A stretch of 64,000 nucleotides of DNA. Origin: Marinimicrobium hydrolyticum. Lineage in GTDB: Bacteria > Pseudomonadota > Gammaproteobacteria > Pseudomonadales > Cellvibrionaceae. Shown here in pieces: positions 51,285-51,950 of this stretch. Position 1 is the stretch's first letter. Each line of letters starts with the position of its first letter. A program made the position numbers and the translations under genes. The notes under the pieces are model-generated. The model searched no databases. It was given only the letters and a program-made list of their open reading frames with translations, and was not told the DNA's origin. The stretch spans positions 310,001 through 374,000 of the forward strand of contig NZ_JAVDDU010000002.1 of the NCBI RefSeq assembly GCF_030848505.1, read 5' to 3'.

Positions 51285-51463
51285 GATATTCCTATCTATC
51301 GATTTTTGCGTATTCTACTTTTTACTGAACAGCCCGTCATTCTCGCAAAGGTCCACAGATGGTGTAGACCGCGTTTTGCACTGCTTCGCACTCGCTTTAA
51401 ATTTCAGGCACTCGAAAACTAACTGCTAGCGAGTACTTCGTAAGAGGAATCCCAGGCGCTTCA

Positions 51464-51564
51464 CAGGAGGCTTTTCGAAAACGCCGTAAACCCGTCCCTG
51501 GGGGCTTTCTCACCGGGGCGCCGGCCGCAAGCTCCCTCTTGTGAGAGTTTCGAAAAGCCTCCTG
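51464..51564. repeat. Palindromic element A (17-bp perfect inverted repeat, 67-bp interior)
   Basis: Left arm CAGGAGGCTTTTCGAAA (51464-51480) and right arm TTTCGAAAAGCCTCCTG (51548-51564) pair perfectly. An inner pair TCTCAC/GTGAGA (51508-51513 with 51541-51546) is nested. The interior starts with a core (51481-51512) that matches the minus strand of element B at 27 of 32 positions. Confidence 0.75.
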
Positions 51565-51576
51565 CAAATCGCCTTA

Positions 51577-51671
51577 GCAGCCCCACCCAAGGCATTCTTA
51601 CCGCTCAGCAACTCCTGCTATGACGGTGGTAGGTAGGGGCTACAGAAAAGAACTCGGTAGGTTGGGGCTGC
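51577..51671. repeat. Inverted repeat spanning the spacer between elements A and B
   Basis: GCAGCCCCA (51577-51585) pairs with TGGGGCTGC (51663-51671), with partial pairing extending inward. It bridges the space between the two larger palindromic elements. Confidence 0.4.
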
Positions 51672-51673
51672 CA

Positions 51674-51779
51674 GGGCCGTGCAGGGTGAGTGTTCAGCAA
51701 GCCTCAAAAGAGGGACCTTTTGAGGCAGTCCCCAGGGAGGGGTTTACGACGTTTGCTGAACACTCACTCTGCATGGCCC
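51674..51779. repeat. Palindromic element B (27-bp inverted repeat with nested hairpin)
   Basis: Arms at 51674-51700 and 51753-51779 pair at 25 of 27 positions. Nested immediately inside is GCCTCAAAAG (51701-51710), loop AGGGAC, CTTTTGAGGC (51717-51726). The core shared with element A lies on the minus strand (51752 to 51721), so the two elements are in opposite orientation. Confidence 0.75.
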
Positions 51780-51950
51780 GAGGGCCTGCTTACGAAGTTA
51801 CCAATTCGATTGTTTATTCCACCGCAGCACGCATACATGGGGAGAACGCATGGGGTTTGACGCGCTTCGCGGTGAGATTGCGCCTTCATTGGGTGTTAAG
51901 CTGTGCGCTATTGTACAATGGCGCACCCGATCCGGCAGAGATGGCAGCTA

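Follow-up and report, generated by a model that had tools for sequence, protein, structure and literature searches.

On sequence grounds, the nearest named relatives of the repeat described here are the YPAL/RU-2 repeats of Yersinia and the Rfam family Ysr224. YPAL elements are reported to have target-site duplications of 3-26 bp, with empty sites in Yersinia, and to be co-transcribed with upstream transcripts that they possibly affect (De Gregorio et al. 2006, cited in PMC2229807). The second system that bears on this repeat is CsrA/RsmA, a global post-transcriptional regulator in the Gammaproteobacteria whose known antagonists are a handful of small RNAs. The CsrA/RsmA site is an ANGGAN hexaloop in which the N positions are free (PMC7652899, PMC3791407), the SELEX consensus is RUACARGGAUGU, and one CsrA dimer bridges sites 10-63 nt apart, with an optimum above 18 nt (PMC7652899/PMC3791407). 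The TwoAYGGAY RNA (RF01731) and the reverse complement of Bacillaceae-1 are sequence-based predictions of CsrA-binding RNAs (PMC4333381), and because they were made earlier, the idea of a twin-hairpin CsrA ligand has precedent. The element is ordinary in being an intergenic, MITE-like repeat whose relative already has a name; what is new is the breadth of the family across the class, the assignment of a strand, and the twin CsrA-type loops, which are candidates for binding.

Results

The window, the whole 64,000-nucleotide stretch of Marinimicrobium hydrolyticum DNA that was analysed, contains an inverted pair of elements, A and B, between the divergent ubiE and alpha/beta-hydrolase-like ORFs (Table 1). 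An earlier note on this DNA had described two palindromes upstream of ubiE, and both are borne out, the arms of A (51454-51480/51548-51574) being 89% complementary and those of B (51674-51705/51748-51779) 88%. The core that it saw in both palindromes, in opposite orientation, lies at 51485-51503 (+) in A and at 51730-51748 (-) in B, where 0.03 chance matches are expected per window. Covariance model R1 matches A at 51559-51469 (-) with 57.1 bits (E 1.7e-13) and B at 51689-51764 (+) with 72.7 bits (E 7.9e-18). RNA folding of the strand read in the earlier note gave z -4.2 for A and about -10.3 for B, both better than 200 of 200 shuffles. The third inverted repeat, said to bridge A and B, is also present; its fold is marginal (z about -2.2, with 8 of 200 shuffles as good), and its complementary tails CAGCCCCAACTA and TTAGTTGGGGCTG recur in other composites, e.g., L012, L022, and L005. 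The ends CTTCGTAAG/CTTACGAAG also flank many other type I and type II copies in the same genome. In the window region there was no convincing promoter or terminator and no terminator-like T tract, and no Rfam family reached gathering level in the window. Composites elsewhere (flanks of L003, L005, L012, L022, L028, and L034) are often bordered by the CGTC-type, REP-like motifs GTCATTCCCGCG/CGCGGGAATGAC and by CACTGCTGTCCGGAATAATT, which suggests that several repeat families are nested.

An alignment of 56 diverse copies, made on the strand opposite to the one read in the earlier note, reveals a common three-way junction that consists of an outer stem P1, a hairpin P3, and a hairpin P2 with a 2-bp outer extension. 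Its 26 pairs are formed in 95.1% of cells, compared with 61.7% after shuffling and 34-46% with the partners slid. Two-sided changes were found at 25 of the 26 pairs, including 9/9 in P3 and 3/3 in P2, and this excludes stems that vary without compensation. Because the copies were chosen partly for a paired P1, the contribution of that stem to the covariation is overstated; P3 and P2 were free of such selection. The P1 stem is found in 188 of 213 copies, with a median of 27 bp, and the P2 stem may be CCC/GGG, UAC/GUA, or UCC/GGA around the same loop. In two Pseudoteredinibacter species, orthologous inverted pairs with the same flanking genes (L169 2330-2560 and L187 4878-5095) have wholly different, near-perfect P1 stems: the sequence of P1 turns over fast while its pairing is kept. 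Insertions are found as well. A 15-nt palindromic insert, CCGG(A/G)GCGCCGGCCG, occupies an identical P3-arm position in at least six copies of both types, and a conserved insert of about 80-90 nt (CCGCAAGCGGCCCTGCCCC...CTTGCCTCACC) occupies one and the same P3-arm place in several copies of the M. hydrolyticum genome (L005, L022, L026, and L040).

Table 1. Positions of the element pair, its parts and the flanking genes in the window; strand given for the elements is the GGA (RNA-like) strand.
Feature	Position	Strand	Basis or remark
alpha/beta-hydrolase-like ORF	start 51284	-	flanks the pair, divergent from ubiE
Composite left end, ACTTCGTAAG	51435-51444	+	inverted copy of 51789-51798; sequence reading
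Element A, type II copy, whole hairpin with outer arms	51454-51574	-	inverted repeat and covariance model
Element A P2 loop AGGGAC, closed by CCC/GGG	51494-51499	-	sequence reading, ANGGAN consensus
Element A P3-arm insert CCGGGGCGCCGGCCG, 15 nt	51513-51527		near-identical insert at the same place in L007, L012, L038, L044, L061
Element A P3 loop AGGGAG	51532-51537	-	sequence reading and model alignment
A-B spacer with bridging inverted repeat 51571-51588/51660-51677	51571-51677		inverted-repeat search, folding
Element B, type I copy, whole hairpin	51674-51779	+	inverted repeat and covariance model
Element B P3 loop AGGGAC on stem GCCTCAAAAG/CTTTTGAGGC	51711-51716	+	sequence, fold, model
Element B P2 loop AGGGAG, closed by CCC/GGG	51734-51739	+	sequence, model
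Element B GGG-TTYACGRCGT segment, conserved, 3' of P2 loop	51740-51752	+	TT.AC invariant in alignment A1
Composite right end, CTTACGAAGT	51789-51798	+	sequence reading
ubiE	ATG at about 51951	+	flanks the pair on the other side

The 3.99-Mb genome from which the window is taken contains 79 core matches (at most 3 mismatches), against 2 for a reversed-pattern control, which disposes of the possibility that no other copies exist; about 40 places resemble one type I copy of the sister genome. There are three main subfamilies: types I and II together form the composite of the window, and type III has unrelated stems around the same core. Across 369 genomes of the class Gammaproteobacteria, the exact core occurs in 11, with up to 108 copies each, and the variant with a UAC/GUA second stem (P2) in 41, with 382 copies in one, and neither control gave a match. 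The family is wider than its CCC/GGG core, since the UAC/GUA-stem variant is present in more genomes. A scan of 84,980 species genomes for the core returned at least 118 stretches, and the genera among the matches listed include Stenotrophomonas, Xanthomonas, Marinobacter, Microbulbifer, Rheinheimera, Zobellella, Methylotuvimicrobium, Yersinia, Alcanivorax, and others; the earlier note had placed similar strings in other marine Gammaproteobacteria, and Marinobacter, Microbulbifer, Rheinheimera, Zobellella, and others bear this out. Of 299 genomes sampled across the phylum, 19 contained matches to the covariance model, and all 19 are Gammaproteobacteria. Between genomes of one family the copy number ranges from 0 to 94. 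The highest number seen, about 490 copies of both core variants (108 + 382), is in the 5-Mb genome of Methylotuvimicrobium buryatense 5G (G249).

A phage search gave no convincing element match. Plasmid copies comprise one in Marinobacter adhaerens and those of E. coli, which look imported, and because plasmid copies are so scarce the element is essentially chromosomal. The YPAL-type copies of E. coli (L357 3004-3110 and L358) are found in five wastewater isolates, four of them on plasmids, beside IS-bounded genes for alcohol dehydrogenase and threonine ammonia-lyase, and the DNA around them is apparently imported.

The existence of within-genome subfamilies, together with the patchy copy number, indicates that the element is copied. 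When 17 sister loci were compared with our genome, one site was filled in both (L362/L007). Site L045 is filled in our genome and the alignable sister stretch (L366 757-1057) is element-free, with flanks too diverged for a target duplication to be read. Another sister locus has flanking sequence that is missing altogether from our genome, and because flanks are absent in this way, absence of the element at most sites is not readable as an empty site. Several candidate mobilizers were considered and rejected. There are no Y1_Tnp (HUH) domains in our genome or its sister, the Y1 genes examined in carriers have no core within about 1.5 kb, and no element lies beside the five Y1 genes of S. maltophilia D457, where TIRYT-associated repeats were the candidate. 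Reverse transcriptase (PF00078), which could mobilize the element in a SINE-like manner, is absent from our genome, its sister, and the high-copy carriers G388, G274, G083, G309, and G239. Clustering of the ORFs near elements at about 100 loci, in search of a dedicated neighbour gene, recovered only ordinary host genes or orthologous neighbours.

Neighbouring elements less than 500 nt apart form pairs of a preferred polarity: 61 of 83 are '+-', as in the window, with the GGA strands pointing outward. In the pairs at L135, L187, and L217, P3 is identical or nearly so and P1 differs. By simple ORF calls, 52 of the gaps that hold elements are convergent, 76 tandem, and 17 divergent, against a background of 67/137/63, so the convergent class is enriched and the divergent class depleted, which is the 3'-end preference of YPAL; the window copy itself sits between divergent genes. 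No orientation bias is seen with respect to genes that present their 3' end to the element (96 vs 84, again with simple ORF calls), and this is unexpected for a purely cis-acting 3'-UTR RNA.

Which strand of the palindrome is selected? If neither strand were used specifically, the stems should contain as many G-T as A-C mismatches. When only strict Watson-Crick pairs were used to set the register of the stems, the non-Watson-Crick positions of 248 distinct P1 stems comprised 183 G-U and 46 A-C on the GGA strand (p = 1.6e-20). The G-U:A-C count is 30:1 in our genome, 12:0 in the sister, 20:7 in Stenotrophomonas, and 115:38 in the rest, the excess has the same direction in both main P2 types, and P3 gives 21:6. 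It follows from this excess that selection acts on the GGA strand in its folded, single-stranded form. Most likely it is the complement of the core quoted in the earlier note that is functional. RNA is the natural reading of a selected single strand, but a G-T excess would also arise in folded single-stranded DNA, and, against a GGA-strand RNA, Rfam Ysr224, which derives from the Yersinia relative, is annotated on the other strand.

On the GGA strand both terminal hairpins have the loop consensus CANGGANG (C-A-N-G-G-A-N-G), and the distance from GGA to GGA is 20-21 nt in 55 of 55 copies measured (20 nt in element B). Most P2 loci were retrieved by search patterns in which some loop bases were specified, and the clean test is a search that leaves the loop unspecified: in nine genomes searched in this way, 275 of 284 core matches still read NTCCNT, the complement of ANGGAN. 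The P3 loop, which no search constrained, has TCC in 171 of 178 copies. The variable loop positions of the element coincide with both N positions in the published ANGGAN site, and the UAC/GUA variant of P2 reads UACANGGANGUA, near the SELEX consensus. The hairpins are thus paired ANGGAN hexaloops at a spacing within 10-63 nt, and CsrA is suggested because the fixed bases, the free bases, the closing pair, and the spacing all match the published site. We regard the loops as candidate CsrA/RsmA binding sites. Expanded copies add GGA loops in P3 in Stenotrophomonas (L128 and L201) and in P2 in our genome (L006, L011, L067-L069, and L073), where covarying stems surround the loop (TCGC-AGGGAA-GCGA and TCAC-AGGGAA-GTGA); the P3 expansion of our genome, some 80-90 nt long, carries no further GGA loops on the GGA strand. 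The gene csrA is present in our genome (G000:C26:80884-81039) and in every carrier tested at 90% completeness or more. Most high-copy carriers have a single csrA and many element-free relatives have two or more, in a small sample uncorrected for kinship, and we base no conclusion on this difference.

Discussion

Elements A and B are an inverted pair of copies of a dispersed repeat, best explained as a non-coding, MITE-like mobile element of the YPAL superfamily that carries CsrA/RsmA sites, an explanation to which we give about an even chance. The GGA strand (- for A, + for B) is the selected product in this view. It folds into a long P1 stem of about 27 bp, free in sequence, followed by a junction that carries P3 and P2, each of which displays an ANGGAN hexaloop closed by C-G, that is, a putative high-affinity CsrA/RsmA site. 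The twin GGA triplets, 20-21 nt apart, could be bridged by one CsrA dimer. A trans-acting mobility function would spread the element, and a transcript in the GGA orientation would bind a CsrA/RsmA dimer, with the result that the host transcript is stabilised or repressed; alternatively, the roughly 100 copies together may take CsrA out of circulation. Dispersal, structure, covariation, the loop consensus, and the strand asymmetry are observed here, and transcription at the locus, CsrA binding, and its consequence are read from motif and fold. As a whole explanation, a mobile GGA-strand RNA with twin CsrA/RsmA sites seems to us evenly poised between right and wrong. Further points against the CsrA reading are the shortness of the motif, the conserved TTYACGRCGT segment, for which no part in CsrA binding is known, and the P3 expansions of Methylotuvimicrobium, which carry GGA hairpins on the other strand.

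The GGA strand might instead be a folded single-stranded DNA substrate for a transposase or recombinase, like REP or integron attC, with an accidental likeness to CsrA sites. Dispersal at patchy copy numbers with genome-specific stems, the strand asymmetry, which is likewise expected of folded single-stranded DNA, the fixed polarity of the inverted pairs (61/83 '+-'), and the target-site duplications and empty sites of YPAL in Yersinia all agree with this proposal. We consider it somewhat unlikely, however, given that no Y1 (HUH) transposase domain occurs in our genome or its sister and no core lies near the carrier Y1 genes examined, and that the loop fixes precisely the four bases read by CsrA and frees precisely the two unread. 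That the repeat is a REP/REPIN-type element, or a terminal inverted repeat of a RAYT-like gene, moved by a RAYT transposase is hardly credible. The element is palindromic, intergenic, and paired, and self-complementary terminal inverted repeat families do occur near RAYT-like genes in S. maltophilia (Di Nocera 2013), where the element is abundant too, but the RAYT domain is absent from both our genome and its sister, the element adjoins none of the carrier Y1 genes examined, including the five of S. maltophilia D457, and no GTAG tag was seen at the foot of the stem. When the earlier note named a MITE, a REP-like repeat or a dispersed RNA with compensating stems, it had the kind right, but by the tests run the element does not belong to the GTAG/RAYT type of REP.

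Two other alternatives invoke an RNA. A structural 3'-end element that stabilises or attenuates transcripts, as has been suggested for YPAL and REP, would act through the long stem alone, with loops kept for folding. It would account for the depletion of divergent and enrichment of convergent gaps (52/76/17 vs 67/137/63) and for the reported co-transcription of YPAL with, and possible influence on, upstream transcripts. Yet a plain stem needs no invariant A.GGA in two loops at constant spacing, and the window copy lies between divergent genes with no terminator-like T tract; we judge this explanation improbable. It is very unlikely that the TCC strand is the active RNA, an antisense sRNA family whose UCC loops pair with Shine-Dalgarno sequences. 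Ysr224 is indeed annotated on that strand, but the wobble asymmetry favours the other by 183 to 46, and pairing to GGA leaves the conserved sixth loop base and the free fifth unexplained.

Returning to the mobile RNA with twin CsrA/RsmA sites, a broader proposal, which we make tentatively and rate at rather less than an even chance, is that a mobile superfamily has spread such twin sites, tens to hundreds per genome, through many Gammaproteobacteria, as a distributed, transposable sponge or a ready-made regulatory switch. If true, such seeding would add genes to, or drain protein from, the Csr/Rsm network wherever the element lands. The free CsrA pool and the reach of the regulon would then depend on mobile DNA, if an element of up to several hundred copies displays two high-affinity sites per copy.

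Comparison with known systems

REP/REPIN sequences with their RAYT (PMC3733652) are also dispersed intergenic palindromes with a 3'-end bias and inverted pairs. However, they are 20-40 bp long, with GTAG/CGTC tags and a RAYT, whereas the element is about 100 nt long, forms a three-way junction, and has no RAYT in its genome. The TwoAYGGAY RNA resembles the element in having a pair of hairpins with ANGGA-type loops, for which binding of a CsrA dimer has been proposed (PMC4333381); its model, RF01731, has no match in the window or in 12 related loci, and a dispersed multicopy element is not reported in that paper. The sponge RNAs CsrB/CsrC and RsmX/Y/Z, like the element, expose ANGGAN hairpin loops on one strand. 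They are sRNA genes of one to few copies with many sites, whereas the element has two sites, about 100 genomic copies, and is seen as DNA.

Among Rfam families, the model of Ysr224 (RF02770, Yersinia sRNA 224) is itself a YPAL copy, on the opposite strand, and ends before the 3' arm of P1. It scores 72.4 bits with the E. coli plasmid copy L357 and 30.8 bits, below its gathering score of 70, with a Stenotrophomonas copy, and it does not match the element in the window even at an E-value cutoff of 5. In Yersinia proxima, a copy with a CCC/GGG core (L113) is recognized both by R1 (59.2 bits) and by Ysr224 (94 bits).

A search for the exact core strings in open papers returned nothing relevant, and a literature search with the UAC/GUA loop string TACATGGATGTA led to RU-2, which is YPAL. 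The printed Y. pestis sequence of RU-2 has the part order of the element, P3 CCGCGCCAAGGATGGCGCGG, P2 GCCTACATGGATGTA, and then TTTACGGCGT, within a long internal inverted repeat (PMC2759123), so that P3 and P2 lie in the same order and with the same junctions. Both repeats are intergenic and present in tens of copies. The window element differs from YPAL/RU-2 in its unrelated stem sequences, in a P2 that is mostly CCC/GGG in types I-III, in its inverted pairs within a larger composite, and in its non-enterobacterial host. Neither twin CsrA loops nor a spread of YPAL across the Gammaproteobacteria is reported in the YPAL/RU-2 papers (PMC2229807, PMC2759123). YPAL-type repeats, which have for years been described as hairpins of unknown use, would gain a specific, readily testable candidate partner, and the wobble asymmetry indicates which strand to examine.
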